Below are positions 41,988 through 49,027 of a DNA stretch of 49,081 nucleotides, piece by piece (within the stretch, counting starts at the first letter, position 1; each line of letters opens with the position of its first letter). The notes beneath the pieces were generated by a model. That model was not told where the DNA came from. It ran no database searches and worked only from the letters and a program-made list of their open reading frames with translations. The stretch comes from a virus, in IMG/VR virus record IMGVR_UViG_3300017763_000028, positions 1 to 49,081 of that record; one strand, 5' to 3'. The position numbers and the translations under genes were made by a program.

Positions 41988-42010
41988 CTCTTAACAGAGT
42001 TTGAAAAAGA

Positions 42011-42034
42011 GGGACGTTTATCGTCCCTTTTTTG
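42011..42034 (+). terminator. Rho-independent terminator
   Basis: GGGACG pairs with CGTCCC around TTTAT and is followed by six T. It separates the replication/regA block from the curli-like operon. Confidence 0.9.
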
Positions 42035-42056
42035 CGCTTACAAGAAAGTAAAAAGA

Positions 42057-42063
42057 ATAAATA
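42057..42063 (+). promoter_or_regulatory. Late promoter box (ATAAATA) for the curli-like operon
   Basis: The box lies right after the terminator and ends exactly six bases before the A of the ATG at 42069. It is the only clear promoter I see for the next 6.9 kb. Confidence 0.65.
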
Positions 42064-42068
42064 ATTGC

Positions 42069-42365
42069 ATGAATGAGATATTTGAGTTGATAGGTGAAGT
42101 GGGAGCCCCAATTGCTGGAAGCATAGTCATGGGATTCTTTATCTTTACTGTTATCAAACAAATCCTTGAGGGTGTTGTTGACGATATAAAAACGTTAACG
42201 ATGTTCTGCAAGTCCTTAGAAAACCGTGCGAGAACAATGTCAAATGAAATGATTAAGATTGACATGTTAGTTTCATCAGCACTTGAATTGAGACCCGACA
42301 TAGAACGTATTGCACGTGCAGAAAACTTTATAGAAGACGGTAAGCTCGACGTAAGAAGAGATTAA
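42069..42365 (+). CDS. One-TM protein, first gene of the curli-like operon
   Basis: The protein has 98 residues. A hydrophobic segment spans about residues 11-33 (VGAPIAGSIVMGFFIFTVIKQIL), followed by a charged helix (VDDIKTLTMFCKSLENRARTM, then IERIARAENFIEDG). The message would be leaderless. The next gene has the same TM-then-coiled-coil plan, so the two may work as a pair in the inner membrane. No family is recognised. Confidence 0.55.
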   Translation: MNEIFELIGEVGAPIAGSIVMGFFIFTVIKQILEGVVDDIKTLTMFCKSLENRARTMSNEMIKIDMLVSSALELRPDIERIARAENFIEDGKLDVRRD

Positions 42366-42366
42366 C

Positions 42367-42684
42367 ATGGAAACTGAAGTTGTTGAAGTTGTAGCAAATA
42401 CAGACCCCACGTTAGTTACTCTACTGAATGAATATGGTTTTCCTATTGTCATGATGGTTGGCCTGGGATATTTCATTTATTATATTTGGTGGTTTGTAGG
42501 TGAAAAACTAGAACCCGAAATAGAGAAACAGCATTTTGCACTTATCAAAGTTATTGACCAAGTGAGAATGTTAGACCAAGATTTAATTCGTTTACAACAA
42601 AAGGTAGACGTAGTTCTTGAATATAAAGAGAACGCAAAAAAGAAAGAGGTTAAGAATGCAGAAAATAGCAGCGATAATAATTAG
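42367..42684 (+). CDS. One-TM coiled-coil protein
   Basis: The protein has 105 residues. YGFPIVMMVGLGYFIYYIWWFVG (about 23-45) is the membrane helix, with Trp pairs at its end. A heptad-like helix (HFALIKVIDQVRMLDQDLIRLQQKVDVVLEY) follows. Its end overlaps the CsgF start by 29 bases. Its position suggests a partner in curli-like export or in lysis. Confidence 0.55.
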   Translation: METEVVEVVANTDPTLVTLLNEYGFPIVMMVGLGYFIYYIWWFVGEKLEPEIEKQHFALIKVIDQVRMLDQDLIRLQQKVDVVLEYKENAKKKEVKNAENSSDNN

Positions 42685-43117
42685 TATTTCTTTTGCACTT
42701 AGTGTAAGTGCAGATGAAATTGTTCACAAATTTAAAAGTCCAAGCTTCAGTGGAATAGGAATATCTGCACATTATCTTACAATTGAAAATCAAGAGAAGT
42801 CAAGACGTGATAAAATAAAGCAAGACTTGGAAGATGCAATTGCAAAAGCAGATAGGGAAGCTCAGAATACAACGCTTGCCAAATTTTTAAGGAACGTAGA
42901 GAGTAGAATCTACGCTCAGTTAGCAAAACAGTTAGTTGAAAATATGTTCTCAAATGGAACTGCAGCTAATTATGGTACATTTGTAATGGAAGGAAACACT
43001 GTTACATATGAAAGAATGACTGGGGAAGATGGTGTCGATTTCATAAGATTAACAATTGTTACTGAAGATGGAACAACAACAGTTTTAGATATACCAGTAG
43101 GAACAGGAAGCTTCTAA
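42656..43117 (+). CDS. csgF: CsgF-like curli assembly factor
   Basis: The protein has 153 residues from the ATG at 42656, where a signal peptide begins (MQKIAAIIISISFALSVSA, cleaved before DEIV); the frame is open further up inside the previous gene. The mature part starts with the F-x-NP-F-like FKSPSFSG, has a helical insert rich in Lys and Asp, then AQLAKQLVENMFSNG, FVMEGNTVTYER and a C-terminal DGTTTVLDIPVG. This order fits CsgF, which plugs the CsgG pore to make a second constriction and exposes the nucleator outside. It lies four bases before csgG, the order seen in bacteria. Confidence 0.8.
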   Translation: MQKIAAIIISISFALSVSADEIVHKFKSPSFSGIGISAHYLTIENQEKSRRDKIKQDLEDAIAKADREAQNTTLAKFLRNVESRIYAQLAKQLVENMFSNGTAANYGTFVMEGNTVTYERMTGEDGVDFIRLTIVTEDGTTTVLDIPVGTGSF

Positions 43118-43120
43118 ACA

Positions 43121-44029
43121 ATGAAAAATATACTAACAGTAGGACTACTAGTTCTACTCATGAGTGGGTGTGCTAGTATTCCCAGCATGACAGACTCATG
43201 TTCTTCCATTGTGATGGAAAGGTTAGGTACATGCGTTGAAGAAGCAGAAGTGGTAAATATACCTACTTATCAAGAGTTGTCTGATTTACCAGCAGCGGAT
43301 ACGATGCCAGTAGTTGCAGTATACGCTTTTCAAGATAAGACAGGACAACGTAAGAGTAAAGATGGAATTGCATCTTTCTCTACTGCAGTAACCCAAGGTG
43401 CAGAATCATTTTTGATTGATGCCTTGAAGACTGCTGGAAAAGGTAAATGGTTTAGAGTTGTAGAAAGAACAAACTTAGATGCACTAATAAGAGAGCGTCA
43501 AATAGTTCGTTCTGCAAGAGAAGACTTTGCAAACCAAGATGGAAATGAGAATGCTCCAACAGGTATTCAACCATTGCTGTTTGCTGGTATCCTGCTTGAC
43601 GGTGGGATAGTTGGTTATGATACTAACATTGAAAGCGGTGGTAGAGGCGCAAGATACTTAGGTATTGGTTCAAGTGCTTCCTATCGTAGGGATGTTGTCA
43701 CCATATCGTTGAGAGGAATATCAACTTTAACAGGTGAAATTTTGCTGAATGTACAGACTCAGAAAACGATTCTTAGTACAGGTGGTGGTTATGATGTATT
43801 CCGCTTCGTTGATATGGATACGAAGTTAGTGGAAATGGAAGATGGCGTCGCAGCCAATGAGGGAGTTACAAAAGCAACTCGTTCAGCGATAGAACTTGCC
43901 GTCTTGGAACTAATATACCAAGGTCATGATAGAGACTTTTGGATAATAAAGGATGGACATCGACACCCACATGGAACTCATGGAAGGAACGAGAAACATT
44001 CAACAGAGGAAATAACAGATGAAGAATAA
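43121..44029 (+). CDS. csgG: CsgG-like curli secretion lipoprotein pore
   Basis: The protein has 302 residues (E. coli CsgG has 277). MKNILTVGLLVLLMSGC is a lipoprotein signal with the acylated Cys at 17. The core VVAVYAFQDKTGQRK, FSTAVTQGAESFLIDALK, VVERTNLDALIRERQIVRSA, GGIVGYDTNIESGGRGARYLGIG, STLTGEIL, KTILS and FRFVD follows the CsgG family very closely. CsgG forms the nonameric outer membrane channel for curli subunits. The C-terminal 30 residues are a His/Asp-rich tail (HRHPHGTHGRNEK) beyond the usual end. It overlaps the next gene by 11 bases. Confidence 0.93.
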   Translation: MKNILTVGLLVLLMSGCASIPSMTDSCSSIVMERLGTCVEEAEVVNIPTYQELSDLPAADTMPVVAVYAFQDKTGQRKSKDGIASFSTAVTQGAESFLIDALKTAGKGKWFRVVERTNLDALIRERQIVRSAREDFANQDGNENAPTGIQPLLFAGILLDGGIVGYDTNIESGGRGARYLGIGSSASYRRDVVTISLRGISTLTGEILLNVQTQKTILSTGGGYDVFRFVDMDTKLVEMEDGVAANEGVTKATRSAIELAVLELIYQGHDRDFWIIKDGHRHPHGTHGRNEKHSTEEITDEE

Positions 44030-44747
44030 AATATTACTCATGATGTTAACATTAGGAGCGTCAACTTTAGCATTTGCTGGAGCAGACGATAATGAAGTTT
44101 GGTTACAACAATCGGGTACTGCGCTTACTTTAAACATAACACAAAAAGGTTATGGTAACAAAGTTGGTGGTGATGACTTTAGTGGTACGTCAATAGATAT
44201 GTTATTGACTGGTGCTACCAATAGTTTAACACTAGTACAATTCGGTGACAGTAACAAACTATACGGCCCATTCATTGCAGATAGTTCAACAGTAAATTTA
44301 ACTTTTACTGGTGATTCAAACTCAATGGATTGGAACGTTGGTTATCAAGGTTCAGCAGATAACTTAAATATGTTAGGAGCTGTTACAGGTTCATCTAACA
44401 CATTTGATATTGATGTTGGATACGACCAGTCTGCAGAATACTTAAACTGGGACTTAGTAGTAGGTGGTTCAAGTAATGTATTCACAACAAAGATAGATAG
44501 TGACAATGCTGTTTGGAACTGGACTGTTACAGGTTCAACAAATGACATTAATACTATTCAGGCAGACGCAACAGATAATAAAATTACTGCAGTCTTAACT
44601 GGTTCAGGCAATGATATAGATATCATTCAAAAATCGGGTTCAGATACAGGTTGTCCAAGTGGTCAGTCATGTAGTGGTATTATTGATGTGAGCTTCGTGA
44701 CTTCTAATGCAAATATTGACATCGTTCAAAAAGACGATAACGATTAA
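44019..44747 (+). CDS. Curlin-like repeat protein 1
   Basis: The protein has 242 residues with a signal peptide (MKNKILLMMLTLGASTLAFA). The mature protein is built of strand-turn units such as LTLNITQKGYGNKV, SLTLVQFGDSNKL and VNLTFTGDSNSM, which resemble the Ser-x5-Gln-x-Gly-x-x-Asn spacing of curlin repeats. It is Asn, Asp, Gly and Ser rich, almost without Lys, and has one Cys pair (C206 and C212 region) near the end. It ends with IDIVQKDDND. The neighbouring CsgG/CsgF pair is the natural exporter. Whether it forms amyloid is untested. Confidence 0.75.
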   Translation: MKNKILLMMLTLGASTLAFAGADDNEVWLQQSGTALTLNITQKGYGNKVGGDDFSGTSIDMLLTGATNSLTLVQFGDSNKLYGPFIADSSTVNLTFTGDSNSMDWNVGYQGSADNLNMLGAVTGSSNTFDIDVGYDQSAEYLNWDLVVGGSSNVFTTKIDSDNAVWNWTVTGSTNDINTIQADATDNKITAVLTGSGNDIDIIQKSGSDTGCPSGQSCSGIIDVSFVTSNANIDIVQKDDND

Positions 44748-45846
44748 TTTTCTTCTGATTGGTTCACTTGCAATTGCAGCTGAACCAATTGGTGAAATAG
44801 TCGAACAGAAAGGATACGCGGGTTTACAGAGAGACGGTTCAGAAACCATTCTCTCTGCATCCGAGTTACCCGATGTGCTGATGTATGATACAGCACAAAC
44901 CGTAAACGGTAGAATGAAAATCCAGTTCAAAGGAACTGAAGAGTTGGATTTAACAGAACATACCAAGGTTTGGATAGACGAGGTTTATTATGACCCCGAC
45001 CCATCCAAGTCCAAAATGGCCATAAGAATGGCACAAGGCACCGCCCGATTTGCTTCGGGTTTTGGTGGAAAAATTAAGAAAGCTAACATAAATATAACTA
45101 CCCCGACTGCACAGATAACAGTCAACGGCACCGACTTCACTACAAGTATTGATGAAATCGGAAGGTCACTTGTTATATTGCTGCCTGATAAATGGGGAGC
45201 TCCTTCGGGAAGTATTTTAGTTAGTAATGCAGGCGGTGAAGTATTATTAGATGAGGCCTATCAAGCAACTATGGTTTCTACATATGACTCATCACCAACT
45301 AAACCAGTAGTGGTTAATGGGATTACACCCAGTTTAATTGACAACTTATTCATTGTCAGTCCACCCGACGAGGTGAATGAACAAGTTGCAGAAGAACAAA
45401 GAAGTAACGAGAATGATAGTAACAATGTTCTTGATGTAGATTTCTTAGAGTTCAATGACCTAGAAGAAAATTACTTTGAGGATGATGAATTAGAATACAC
45501 GGAACTCGACAGAGATTTATTAGATGTCGATTTCCTACAGGATTTACTAGATGTTGTCTTGGATATTGACCGTAAGGTTGGTATTGATAGAGAAGTATCT
45601 AATGCCTTCGGAGTGGTTCGTATTGACGGAACTCTGCCAGGCTTTGATAAAGACACTCAATACAATACAATTGTAGACAAGGGTCTTGGTCAGATATGGT
45701 TCTACAGGGAAGTGAATGGAATTATTTCTATTAGACTCCCTATATATGCTCAAGCAAATATTAGAACTGTAACAGACGAAAAGGAGTCACTAATAAGGGT
45801 GGGTGATGGTTCGTCTCTAAATATCACCATCACACAAACAAACTAG
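44707..45846 (+). CDS. FecR-domain exported protein
   Basis: The protein has 379 residues, opening with a signal peptide (ITINFLLIGSLAIAA, cut before EPIG). The first 180 residues have FecR-type features: NGRMKIQFKGTEELDLTEHTKVWID, MAIRMAQGTARFASG, INITTPTAQITVNGTDFTT and SILVSNAGGEVLLDE. The middle (220-290) is very acidic (NDLEENYFEDDELEYTELD). The last residues SLNITITQ resemble half a curlin repeat. It overlaps the end of curlin-like protein 1 by 41 bases. Such exported FecR-like proteins often bind or sense surface structures. Confidence 0.75.
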   Translation: MQILTSFKKTITINFLLIGSLAIAAEPIGEIVEQKGYAGLQRDGSETILSASELPDVLMYDTAQTVNGRMKIQFKGTEELDLTEHTKVWIDEVYYDPDPSKSKMAIRMAQGTARFASGFGGKIKKANINITTPTAQITVNGTDFTTSIDEIGRSLVILLPDKWGAPSGSILVSNAGGEVLLDEAYQATMVSTYDSSPTKPVVVNGITPSLIDNLFIVSPPDEVNEQVAEEQRSNENDSNNVLDVDFLEFNDLEENYFEDDELEYTELDRDLLDVDFLQDLLDVVLDIDRKVGIDREVSNAFGVVRIDGTLPGFDKDTQYNTIVDKGLGQIWFYREVNGIISIRLPIYAQANIRTVTDEKESLIRVGDGSSLNITITQTN

Positions 45847-45854
45847 GAGAATAT

Positions 45855-46001
45855 ATGAATATCATAGAAAAGTTCCGCTCATGGCATGAAAAACAAATCT
45901 TTGGATTTCAAGAAGCAATGAGACTAGATGACTACCACATGATGTGGTTGGCATTCGGTGAGGGAGTTGTCTTATGTTTATTATTTCAATGGTTATTCTA
46001 A
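45855..46001 (+). CDS. Small one-TM protein
   Basis: The protein has 48 residues (MNIIEKFRSWHEKQIFGFQE, then AMRLDDYHMMWLAFGEGVVL, and a hydrophobic end). The ATG has a TAGGAGA site. The layout, amphipathic head and C-terminal TM, recurs in the other short gene at 46651. Function unknown. Confidence 0.5.
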   Translation: MNIIEKFRSWHEKQIFGFQEAMRLDDYHMMWLAFGEGVVLCLLFQWLF

Positions 46002-46008
46002 AAAGAAT

Positions 46009-46650
46009 ATGAAAAGAATTTTATTATTAATTTTATTGACACCTGTAGCATGGGCTGGGGACAACCACGTCCATGTCGAACAGGTTGCAAGCGGTGATGG
46101 GACAGACCTTAACATATCCCAAGTTGGTTTTGATAACACAATCAACTTCACATTTGCACACGCAAACAATACCTTCAACTTATCACAACAAGGAAGTGGT
46201 AATTCTATTTCTTGGGTATCCTATTGGGGCTCTGGAAAAAGTTGGGGTGGTGATGTAGATGGAACAAACAATACAGAATCAGTTCAACAACTAGGTGGTG
46301 CAACATATGGTAGACACATATGGGGTAATAGTAATACAGTAAATGTATATCAGAGTGGTACACATACACACAACCTAGACATTCATGCAGATAGTGTAGA
46401 CCATGATTTACATCAATCGGGTAGTGGAAGTCACTACAACCATACATATTTTTATGGTAATACAGATGGTTCTGATACTAACATATCTCAAACAGGGAGT
46501 GCAAATCATAACTCTCAAATCAGATTACAAGGTTCATATAAAACAGACTTGAATCTAACTCAGACTGGTTCTACAGCAAAGTCATACAATCTTACACAAA
46601 ATTGTGTAACTGCTGGTGGATGTACAATAAGTATTACACAGAGTGACTAA
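46009..46650 (+). CDS. Curlin-like repeat protein 2
   Basis: The protein has 213 residues. MKRILLLILLTPVAWA is the signal peptide, and I place the start at 46009 for that reason, since the frame is open a further 17 codons upstream. At least seven curlin-type units are visible: LNISQVGFDN, FNLSQQGSGNS, VQQLGGATYG, VNVYQSGTH, DLHQSGSGSH, NISQTGSAN and LNLTQTGST. It is His- and Asn-rich, and ends with TISITQSD, like protein 1 and the FecR protein. It is likely the main fibre subunit, with protein 1 as partner. Confidence 0.8.
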   Translation: MKRILLLILLTPVAWAGDNHVHVEQVASGDGTDLNISQVGFDNTINFTFAHANNTFNLSQQGSGNSISWVSYWGSGKSWGGDVDGTNNTESVQQLGGATYGRHIWGNSNTVNVYQSGTHTHNLDIHADSVDHDLHQSGSGSHYNHTYFYGNTDGSDTNISQTGSANHNSQIRLQGSYKTDLNLTQTGSTAKSYNLTQNCVTAGGCTISITQSD

Positions 46651-46815
46651 ATGAAACAGTGGTTATTTAACAAGATGGTTCCATATGCCATCCAATTCAG
46701 AGAGTGGTCAAAGGGGAAAACATGGATACAAATCCCATTGTGGATTTTTATATTATGGATGTTAGGATTTGCTAATCCTTACTGGTGTGTTTATCCCGTC
46801 TGCTGGATTCAGTAG
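46651..46815 (+). CDS. Small Trp-rich one-TM protein
   Basis: The protein has 54 residues (MKQWLFNKMVPYAIQFREWS). A hydrophobic stretch IPLWIFILWMLGFANPYW is followed by CVYPVCW, with a possible disulfide. It is unusually rich in Trp. Its stop overlaps the GTG chosen for the cyclase gene (TAGTG), which would couple their translation. Confidence 0.45.
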   Translation: MKQWLFNKMVPYAIQFREWSKGKTWIQIPLWIFILWMLGFANPYWCVYPVCWIQ

Positions 46816-48656
46816 TGTACAGCTGGAAGACAGTATTAGTAACAATAGGTTTACTATTTACACTTAAGATTTGGAACCCATACTTCATAGAGAATATCTC
46901 TTGGACATGGTTCGATTACTTACATCAACAACAAGGAGAATTTTATGTGGATGACATCGTTCTTGTCGACATCGACGAGAAGTCTCTTGAAACTTTTGGA
47001 CAATATCCTATACGTCGTGGTATTTACCGTGACCTTCTTCTTGATACCCATTATAGCAATACTCATATTTTTGGTATGCTATTTTCTAAACCCGACAGAG
47101 ACCCAACTCAAGACCCGATATTTGCAGAGGGATTAGTCAACCGTCTCACAATCCTTGGAGCTGCTCCAACATCACAAATTCAAAAAGGTTCTGCACCATT
47201 TGTAGGTAATTCAACATTTGGTGGTGGTAATCCAAAAGATTTTCTTTGGAACTTCGATGGAATCGTCTCACCCATCTCAATACTGATGGAAAATACTTAT
47301 GGGGTTGGAGTTGTGACGGCTACTCCAGCTGTCACTGGAACACCAAATTTTGATGGTACTACGCGGTCTGTACCCCTATTGGTTACGGCAAACGATGAAG
47401 TATACCCATCACTAATGTTAGAAGCTTTAAGAGCTCTTAAAGGTGAACCTAGTTATCAGACAAAGATTACACCCGAAACTGGTGTAGAGTGGGTACGGAT
47501 GGGAAGAGACAAACCGATAACCACCACTCCAACCAGTGATGTAATGGTATCCTACTGGAATAAATTCCATAGAATTTCTGCTGTAGATTTACCCGAATCT
47601 AATTTCGAAAATAAGATTCTCGTGTGGGGTCTGACTGCAGAGGGTTTGAATAATCCAGTTTCAACCCCAATGGGAGTAATGTATCCCCATGAAGTGCAAG
47701 CGAACCTGCTCCAAACCGTTTTGACAGGAGTTCAAATACAACAATCCTACTATCTTGAATCCTTAGAGTCTGTTCTTCTTCTGATAGTCCTACTAATGAT
47801 ATTGGGTTTGGTCTACAAAGCTCCCACACTTCTTTCGGGGGTAGGGAGTCTATTGCTTGTAGTATGCCAGATTGGCGGGAGTTATTATATTTGGACTTCA
47901 GAGCTCGTTCTTTTCGATACCTTCTTTTCATCGTTGGCCTCCTTAGTTGTTTTTGGACATGCATCATTTAACAAATACTATGTAACTTTCCAAGAAAAGC
48001 AACAAATCAAGAAGCAGTTCCAAAAGTATTTATCACCCGACATGATTGAAGAGCTTCAAAAACATCCCGAAAAATTGAAACTTGGTGGAGATAGAAGGGA
48101 GATGACCTTCATGTTTATGGACATATGTGGGTTCACCCCCATAAGCGAAGCGTTCATGAAGAATGATGACCCCGAAGGATTAGTTGAATTAATTAATAAA
48201 TTCCTAGACTTACAGACAAAAATTATTCTAAATAATGGTGGAACTATAGATAAATACATGGGCGACTGTATTATGAGTTTTTGGAATGCTCCCATGGATT
48301 GTCCCGACCATGCCGAGATGGCAGTGAAGTCTGCAGAAGAAATATTAATTGCAACCAAGGAACTCAATGAAGAACTTAAACCACTTAATCTCCCGCCTAT
48401 CAATGTCGGCATTGGTATTAATACTGGGGAGTGCATCGTTGGAAACATGGGGTCAGAACTTAGATTTGACTATTCCGTCATTGGAGATGCAGTTAACCTC
48501 GGAGCTAGACTCGAAAGCCAAACACGAAATTATGATGGGGTGGACGTGTTGTTGGGCGAAGCAACATATAGACAGTGTCCATCTAGAGCATTCTCAGAAG
48601 TTGATAGAATTACAGTTAAAGGAAAATCAGTTCCAGTCACAGTTTACACCATCTGA
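46815..48656 (+). CDS. CHASE2-domain class III nucleotide cyclase
   Basis: The protein has 613 residues from the GTG at 46815, which overlaps the preceding stop; a GTG at 46785 in the same frame would add ten. TM1 (about 5-18) is followed by an extracytoplasmic CHASE2 domain (DDIVLVDIDEKSL, RRGIYRDLL, then PHEVQANLLQTVL), then two or three TM helices (about 315-385) and a linker. The catalytic domain has FMFMDICGFT (metal Asp436), DKYMGDCIM (Lys480, Asp484) and IGDAVNLGARLE (Asn561, Arg565). These are the residues of an active adenylate cyclase-type enzyme. It would sense something outside the inner membrane and make cyclic AMP or GMP. Confidence 0.9.
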   Translation: MYSWKTVLVTIGLLFTLKIWNPYFIENISWTWFDYLHQQQGEFYVDDIVLVDIDEKSLETFGQYPIRRGIYRDLLLDTHYSNTHIFGMLFSKPDRDPTQDPIFAEGLVNRLTILGAAPTSQIQKGSAPFVGNSTFGGGNPKDFLWNFDGIVSPISILMENTYGVGVVTATPAVTGTPNFDGTTRSVPLLVTANDEVYPSLMLEALRALKGEPSYQTKITPETGVEWVRMGRDKPITTTPTSDVMVSYWNKFHRISAVDLPESNFENKILVWGLTAEGLNNPVSTPMGVMYPHEVQANLLQTVLTGVQIQQSYYLESLESVLLLIVLLMILGLVYKAPTLLSGVGSLLLVVCQIGGSYYIWTSELVLFDTFFSSLASLVVFGHASFNKYYVTFQEKQQIKKQFQKYLSPDMIEELQKHPEKLKLGGDRREMTFMFMDICGFTPISEAFMKNDDPEGLVELINKFLDLQTKIILNNGGTIDKYMGDCIMSFWNAPMDCPDHAEMAVKSAEEILIATKELNEELKPLNLPPINVGIGINTGECIVGNMGSELRFDYSVIGDAVNLGARLESQTRNYDGVDVLLGEATYRQCPSRAFSEVDRITVKGKSVPVTVYTI

Positions 48657-48963
48657 ACCAATCTCAACTAAGCAGTGGGCTACATTTCTCACATTACAAC
48701 TTGCAGATATCTATACAACTTATCGTGGACTTAAATACAATTGTGTTTATGAAATGAATCCGATTATTGGTGAACAACCATCAGTACCACAAATGTTTCT
48801 TGTTAAAACAATCGTTCTCTTGCCTGCAATCGAATCTGATATAAAACGAGAGTCTCTAACTCCACAAACTATGGATAATATAAATCTTTTAATGGCATTA
48901 GTTGTAGGTAATAACTATAATGTCTGGCATGGTGCAGAAAGAAATTGTTCAAAAAGGTCTTGA
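48601..48963 (+). CDS. DUF5658-like membrane protein
   Basis: The likely protein has about 120 residues. LADIYTTYRGLKYNCVYEMNPIIGE is close to the DxxTT...E-NP signature of a small membrane family (DUF5658-like). It is followed by QMFLVKTIVLLPAIES and a hydrophobic MALVVGNNYN segment. No ATG or GTG is well placed. The in-frame TTG at 48601 overlaps the cyclase gene end by 56 bases, and other choices are possible. It closes the curli/cyclase operon. Function unknown. Confidence 0.5.
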   Translation: MIELQLKENQFQSQFTPSEPISTKQWATFLTLQLADIYTTYRGLKYNCVYEMNPIIGEQPSVPQMFLVKTIVLLPAIESDIKRESLTPQTMDNINLLMALVVGNNYNVWHGAERNCSKRS

Positions 48964-49027
48964 AATTTTAGAAAAAGTCCTTATAATAGTAGTATGGTGT
49001 TATAAATACCATTGTAAGAGAACTTAA
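48920..49027 (+). CDS. Possible tiny membrane protein
   Basis: A 35-codon frame (MSGMVQKEIVQKGLEILEKV, then LIIVVWCYKYHC) starts inside the end of the preceding gene. It has one short hydrophobic helix and no clear ribosome-binding site. The late box at 49001 lies inside it. I list it with low certainty. Confidence 0.25.
   Translation: MSGMVQKEIVQKGLEILEKVLIIVVWCYKYHCKRT
49001..49008 (+). promoter_or_regulatory. Late promoter box (TATAAATA) near window end
   Basis: A perfect TATAAATA precedes a gene that must begin near or beyond the right end. The last 50 bases show no further complete feature. Confidence 0.55.

Follow-up and report, generated by a model that had tools for sequence, protein, structure and literature searches.

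We show that a viral DNA of 49,081 nucleotides (IMG/VR record IMGVR_UViG_3300017763_000028, positions 1 to 49,081; hereafter the window) encodes a curli-type (type VIII) secretion operon, in which the genes of a CsgG/CsgF pore stand with those of two curlin-like candidate substrates, a FecR-domain protein and a CHASE2 cyclase behind a T4-type late promoter. An earlier note, made from the letters of the window alone, had read the region as a phage-encoded late operon with its own substrates, and profile matches, gene order, promoter and T4-like flanks support that reading. We propose, with moderate confidence, that this marine-phage module would form a late CsgG/CsgF pore, export the curlins and the FecR protein and render infected cells sticky around lysis. 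The window is a further member of the type VIII secretion system (T8SS) module already described in pelagiphages. The additions made here are (i) the late promoter; (ii) a C-terminal strand that the FecR protein appears to share with the curlins, and its consequence for the FecR protein; (iii) the lack of a kinase domain in the one-transmembrane (one-TM) proteins; and (iv) the bacterial relatives.

A late curli-type operon in a T4-like phage

The Pfam search matched CsgF, CsgG, FecR, CHASE2 and Guanylate_cyc (Table 1), and the CsgG and CsgF membership claimed in the earlier note is thus confirmed. The CsgG protein also aligns with the E. coli CsgG of solved structure (E=7e-46 over 232 residues), and the Cys17 of its lipobox is invariant in relatives.

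The operon spans 42,056-48,656 of the window and is tightly packed, in the order one-TM pair (two paralogues), CsgF, CsgG, curlin 1, FecR, small TM protein, curlin 2 and CHASE2 cyclase. Neighbouring genes overlap by 29 nucleotides (second one-TM gene and csgF), 11 nucleotides (csgG and curlin 1) and 41 nucleotides (curlin 1 and fecR). An equivalent order, often with the 48-residue TM gene included, recurs in about 80 viral contigs, which were collected by CsgG. Every gene tested, both substrates included, is under purifying selection, with ratios of nonsynonymous to synonymous substitution rates (dN/dS) of 0 to 0.21 relative to these relatives.

The promoter box lies directly behind an intrinsic terminator, and a terminator of like kind precedes the operon in most loci inspected. 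The box of the window, AATAAATA, differs by one base from the consensus; relatives have TATAAATA. We take the T4-type late promoter to be real because TAAATA is kept at the first gene across relatives: of 40 distinct upstream sequences, 29 have it exactly 11 nucleotides 5′ of that gene and 34 have it within 45 nucleotides. Upstream of the interior genes TAAATA is found in 0-1 of 33-41 sequences, the exception being the cyclase gene (4/29). The late promoter that the earlier note had placed at the operon start is therefore conserved, and by its sequence the operon is predicted to be expressed in the late phase together with the structural genes.

The flanks are T4-like. We found genes for terminase, sheath, portal, major capsid protein, the gp44/gp62 clamp loader and regA, and recombination genes and a peptide deformylase gene also lie upstream of the operon. 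Two small open reading frames (ORFs) follow regA, and then come the terminator, the late box and the curli operon. The nearest cultured phages by major capsid protein are Melnitz (67%) and Pelagibacter phage HTVC008M (65%). Bacterial contamination, considered in the earlier note, is ruled out because T4-like genes rather than host genes border the cluster and precede the operon. An Rfam scan of the window gave no matches.

Table 1. Features of the curli-type operon and its borders (window coordinates).
Feature	Position	Strand	Evidence or remark
Intrinsic terminator, AGGGACG-loop-CGTCCCT then T run	42010..42033	+	Read directly; closes upstream replication/regA unit
T4-type late promoter box AATAAATA	42056..42063	+	TAAATA conserved in relatives
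One-TM protein 1, 98 residues	42069..42365	+	phrog_18771 3.7e-24; dN/dS 0-0.04
One-TM protein 2, 105 residues, paralogue of one-TM protein 1	42367..42684	+	phrog_18771 9.9e-25; dN/dS 0.02-0.14
CsgF homologue, signal peptide, ATG start	42656..43117	+	PF10614 3.5e-13 over 142 residues, above cut-off
CsgG outer-membrane lipoprotein pore, lipobox LMSGC	43121..44029	+	PF03783 1.9e-49
Curlin-like substrate 1, predicted beta-solenoid, signal peptide	44019..44747	+	hhalign; AlphaFold (AF2); motif excess
Exported FecR-domain protein	44707..45846	+	PF04773 8.5e-9; AF2; C-terminal motif
Small one-TM protein, 48 residues	45855..46001	+	55 phmmer hits; dN/dS 0.11-0.19
Curlin-like substrate 2, His-rich, signal peptide, ends ISITQ (46627-46641)	46009..46650	+	hhalign; motif excess
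Short ORF, doubtful gene	46651..46815	+	Only in window and two near-identical loci (L005, L006); weakly hydrophobic
CHASE2 sensor and class III adenylate cyclase, 602 residues from ATG	46848..48656	+	CHASE2 1.3e-29; Guanylate_cyc 3.1e-16
DUF5658-like ORF, start and operon membership uncertain	48349..48963	+	PF18902 1.4e-4, below cut-off
Next late box TATAAATA, just 3′ of the unit	49001..49008	+	Sequence scan

Relation to the published module

The genes and order of the window are those of the published pelagiphage T8SS module, HK(1-2)-CsgF-CsgG-CsgA/B-FecR-CsgA/B-AC, described in podo- and myo-pelagiphages (Wittmers et al., 2022; PMC9599517), and a CsgF/CsgG cluster had been reported in marine phages before (Zaragoza-Solas et al., 2020; PMC7029224). 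The earlier note had named pelagiphages as carriers of CsgG and CsgF genes. Its statement that no account placed substrates, FecR and cyclase together does not hold: the Wittmers et al. (2022) module has them, and the GenBank record of Methylophilales phage Melnitz (MZ577097) lists a pair of curlin repeat proteins together with FecR and cyclase, ordered as in the window. The functions that the earlier note had proposed (lysis, aggregation, shielding) are likewise largely in print. The main text of PMC9599517 contains neither the word 'promoter' nor 'C-terminal', and the paper's labels 'HK' and 'iron regulator' are unsupported for the window proteins.

Melnitz and HTVC008M share the gene order of the window, but their CsgG proteins are merely 42-47% identical to that of the window, which is placed in a different branch of the tree of phage CsgG proteins. 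The small TM gene at 45855 was not found in either phage. Melnitz is said to lack csgA/csgB (PMC9004378), but the GenBank record of the phage and Pfam matches above the cut-off contradict this.

Curlin-like substrates

The earlier note had claimed two curlin-like repeat proteins with signal peptides. Family profiles, homologues and motif excess uphold this claim, although on the window's own sequences the Pfam Curlin_rpt cut-off is missed by both proteins (curlin 2, E=0.025; curlin 1, no match). Compared with the curlins encoded beside bacterial csgG, the family profiles gave hhalign probabilities of 98.1% (E=1.4e-13) for curlin 1 and 97.3% (E=1.8e-11) for curlin 2, scores that repetitive composition can raise. 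Both Melnitz homologues and the second curlin of HTVC008M exceed the Curlin_rpt cut-off. The curlin strand motif b-x-b-x-Q occurs seven times in curlin 1, against 0.92 expected in shuffles (reached in 0 of 5000), and five times in curlin 2 against 0.76.

The AF2 model of curlin 1 is all-beta (predicted local distance difference test score 81, predicted template modelling score 0.76) and matches beta-helix proteins over the full mature chain (VIA-align, Z up to 17.6). These were general beta-helix folds, CsgA and CsgB not being among the matches listed, and a Foldseek structure search gave nothing below E 0.001.

Curlin 2 stands out by its many His residues (THTHNLDIH, VDHDLHQ, GSHYNHTYF), perhaps for metal binding. 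The second curlin of HTVC008M (gp018, L002:10579-11904, annotated as a hypothetical protein) carries a PA14 domain (E=2.7e-6) beside its curlin repeats (5.2e-8).

The FecR protein and a shared C-terminal strand

The exported FecR-domain protein of the earlier note is borne out by its Pfam match and signal peptide. Behind the signal peptide lie the FecR beta domain (about residues 29-190), which matches the PupR signalling domain (Z 15.6), an acidic linker (about 200-302) and a C-terminal beta domain (303-379). The AF2 model has the corresponding folded-linker-folded layout, with low confidence over the acidic stretch of about 100 residues.

The FecR protein ends in ITITQ (45823-45837), and curlin 1 in IDIVQ (44715-44729) plus a seven-residue tail. 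Among the 58 non-overlapping ORFs in the window, exactly three have [VIL]x[VIL]xQ near the C-terminus, namely curlin 1, FecR and curlin 2. The motif recurs in 68/68 FecR orthologues, in 54/54 curlin-2 proteins (relaxed form) and in 59/76 curlin-1 proteins, against 2/708 background ORFs, counts that do not represent independent events since many loci are close relatives. At 33-36% overall identity, HTVC008M and Melnitz likewise retain its Ile and Gln. We propose, on these sequence grounds, that the motif corresponds to the terminal strand of the curlin solenoid and is shared so that FecR could dock on the fibre. The claim is limited to the last strand: the whole C-terminal domain of FecR cannot be aligned with the curlins (hhalign probability under 2%), and the idea that this domain is itself a curlin was rejected on that comparison.

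Only the FecR domain was found in the 15 FecR orthologues scanned, with an anti-sigma domain absent from all 15, and the signal peptide directly precedes the domain. Because an anti-sigma domain is absent and the terminal strand is of curlin type, as in both curlins, we suggest that the protein may be no regulator, as it has been labelled, but a fibre anchor, tether or nucleator. In Alphaproteobacteria the best FecR match lay in the first third of the open frame in 29/29 sampled cases (frames of 247 to 6679 residues, many very large), and this N-terminal placement is compatible with envelope anchoring rather than regulation. Among the papers searched, none tied a FecR domain to a curlin, and none was useful on FecR as an adhesin retention domain.

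The shared motif might instead be an export signal read by CsgG, with FecR simply a third secreted cargo. It does mark exactly the three exported proteins besides CsgF, but it is identical to the internal strand motif of the curlins, and E. coli substrates carry their CsgG targeting segment at the N-terminus; we regard this explanation as the chief alternative to docking, though clearly the less probable one. The published label, by which FecR would control the operon as an anti-sigma regulator responding to iron, agrees with the FecR-family periplasmic fold but is largely refuted by the missing anti-sigma domain, with the Sec-type signal peptide, the T4-type late promoter of the unit and the conserved curlin-type C-terminus also speaking against it, and is highly improbable.

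The CHASE2 cyclase and the bacterial relatives

The CHASE2 cyclase assigned in the earlier note has both Pfam domains, transmembrane segments at 305-371 and a complete catalytic set: two metal-binding Asp (D425, D473), the Lys/Asp purine pair (K469, D547) and the Asn/Arg transition-state pair (N550, R554). It resembles solved adenylate cyclases. The catalytic Asn is replaced by Ser in Melnitz and in loci L080 and L084. Two viral contigs of 217-251 kb (L084, L081) carry the module too, and their cyclases are longer.

In a sample of alphaproteobacterial genomes, at least 21 of 115 CHASE2-type cyclase hits had a FecR hit within 3 kb, against 0.35 expected; the fraction is approximate, with FecR matches taken as listed and the weakest cyclase hits left out. 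Since this adjacency exceeds expectation, the combination of FecR and CHASE2 cyclase in the phage module is one that also exists in bacteria. In gene maps, drawn for loci picked for adjacency, FecR surface proteins of Alphaproteobacteria adjoin CHASE2 cyclases with or without curli genes (L226-L243), possibly an undescribed sensory pair.

Among the cellular loci found, the one closest to the phage module is a cluster in Hyphomonas sp. TMED17 (metagenome bin; 705-kb contig L092, NHBW01000006.1, 9483-15506), which contradicts a published statement. It shares the order csgF-csgG-curlin-FecR-CHASE2 cyclase with the window but lies among ordinary bacterial genes and lacks the one-TM pair, the second curlin and the terminal Q motif of FecR. 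In the cyclase tree, Hyphomonas falls between the phage clade and the other alphaproteobacterial cyclases (support 100/100 around the others; 90/62 for the join to either side), and in the CsgG tree, where its branch is long, it joins the phages (99/97). A donor lineage fits best; alternatively, the cluster may have passed from phage to bacterium.

The curli operons of Roseovarius, Pseudovibrio, Sphingomonas and Methylobacterium hold CsgF, CsgG and curlins together, as in the window, but had no FecR or CHASE2 cyclase of the window type in the flanks examined. With E. coli csgBAC/csgDEFG the window shares the CsgG pore and the CsgF family, whereas CsgC, CsgD and CsgE were not recognised, the substrate repeats are much degenerated, and FecR, cyclase and one-TM proteins are extra.

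Phage-type modules also occur in metagenome-assembled genomes assigned to Synechococcus, Flavobacteriales, Planctomycetes and Rhodobacteraceae (L085-L091, L093-L095, L097, L099, L100, L102), probably as misbinned phage DNA. The CsgG of a 1.5-kb 'Salmonella phage' clone (L004, OR851715.1) joins a Balneolaceae sequence on a long branch and is probably bacterial carry-over in a phage sample.

Proposed function and alternatives

Late expression would place a CsgG/CsgF pore in the outer membrane of the infected cell, and this pore would export the two curlin-like beta-solenoid proteins and the FecR protein to the surface. There, FecR could dock on the fibre through its C-terminal strand while its folded FecR domain stayed on the periplasmic side and the long acidic linker spanned the pore, so that the fibre would be tethered or nucleated. 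The inner-membrane CHASE2 cyclase might read the periplasmic state of the system and reply with cyclic AMP (cAMP). Near lysis, the fibres would then keep virions that are released, or host cells nearby, attached to one another. We infer that infected cells most likely adhere or aggregate by means of the module, in line with the 'sibling capture' already in print (Zaragoza-Solas et al., 2020); this function is favoured over uptake or early exclusion because of the late timing, the surface-directed substrates, the possible tether and the PA14 domain of HTVC008M, which is compatible with binding.

Several points weigh against this reading. The operon has no recognised homologue of CsgE. The missed Curlin_rpt cut-off, the effect of repetitive composition on profile scores, the unalignable C-terminal domain of FecR and the Hyphomonas FecR without its terminal motif count in the same direction. 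We know of no report that such a module yields a fibre, secretion or cAMP, and cultures infected by Melnitz did not clump (PMC9004378).

A fuller version of the adhesion reading joins the FecR tether to the cyclase. FecR would be threaded through CsgG, with a plug in the periplasm, the linker in the channel and the strand outside starting and holding the fibre, and the CHASE2 cyclase would sense the plug and signal by cAMP; the whole would have been taken from marine Alphaproteobacteria that have a wider, undescribed FecR-cyclase pair. We consider this combination rather unlikely as a whole.

Fibres or an altered surface could also shield the infected cell from superinfection by further phages. 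Protection by a late operon would come only towards the end of the infection, and phage exclusion genes are usually early. The products are surface-directed and such a shield has been proposed (Wittmers et al., 2022), but we judge it unlikely. For Melnitz, a role in lysis timing has been suggested (PMC9004378), in which CsgG/CsgF, as a pinholin-like or secretin-like pore, would depolarise the envelope and trigger lysis. The late promoter and a faint holin match of one-TM protein 1 (phrog_4898, E=0.0073) agree with it; yet two conserved and selected substrates, FecR and the cyclase would be left unexplained, and the absence of csgA/B from Melnitz does not stand, which leaves this role a small chance. 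Nutrient uptake, in which an ungated CsgG pore would admit large molecules to the periplasm during infection (Zaragoza-Solas et al., 2020; Wittmers et al., 2022), would suit an operon without a recognised CsgE gate, but late timing, conserved substrates and CsgF speak against a bare pore and make it very unlikely.

One-TM proteins and minor ORFs

The two one-TM genes are equated with the published 'HK' from their position. A kinase domain (HisKA/HATPase) was found in none of the 23 family members scanned, which are of about 100 residues with one TM segment, and the histidine kinase label is unsupported. Where the earlier note counted four or more one-TM proteins, those at 42069, 42367 and 45855 are kept in relatives under selection, but the fourth (46651-46815) is not upheld, and its site holds different cargo in other phages. 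In L034, L042 and L044 an ORF between curlin 2 and the cyclase resembles, as read from its sequence, a NifU/IscU-type iron-sulfur scaffold. The DUF5658-like ORF overlaps the cyclase end by about 300 nucleotides, and related ORFs stand there in about 20 loci.

Implications

Curli modules are reported to be widespread in ocean phages (Wittmers et al., 2022). A FecR protein that may be part of the fibre, and one-TM proteins that are probably not a histidine kinase, alter what experiments should seek, and the late promoter speaks for action close to lysis. With the Hyphomonas locus and the pairing of FecR and CHASE2 cyclase there is a cellular system in which the module may be studied without the phage. 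If the joint FecR-cyclase reading were true, phages would have acquired a self-anchored, self-sensing amyloid export system.

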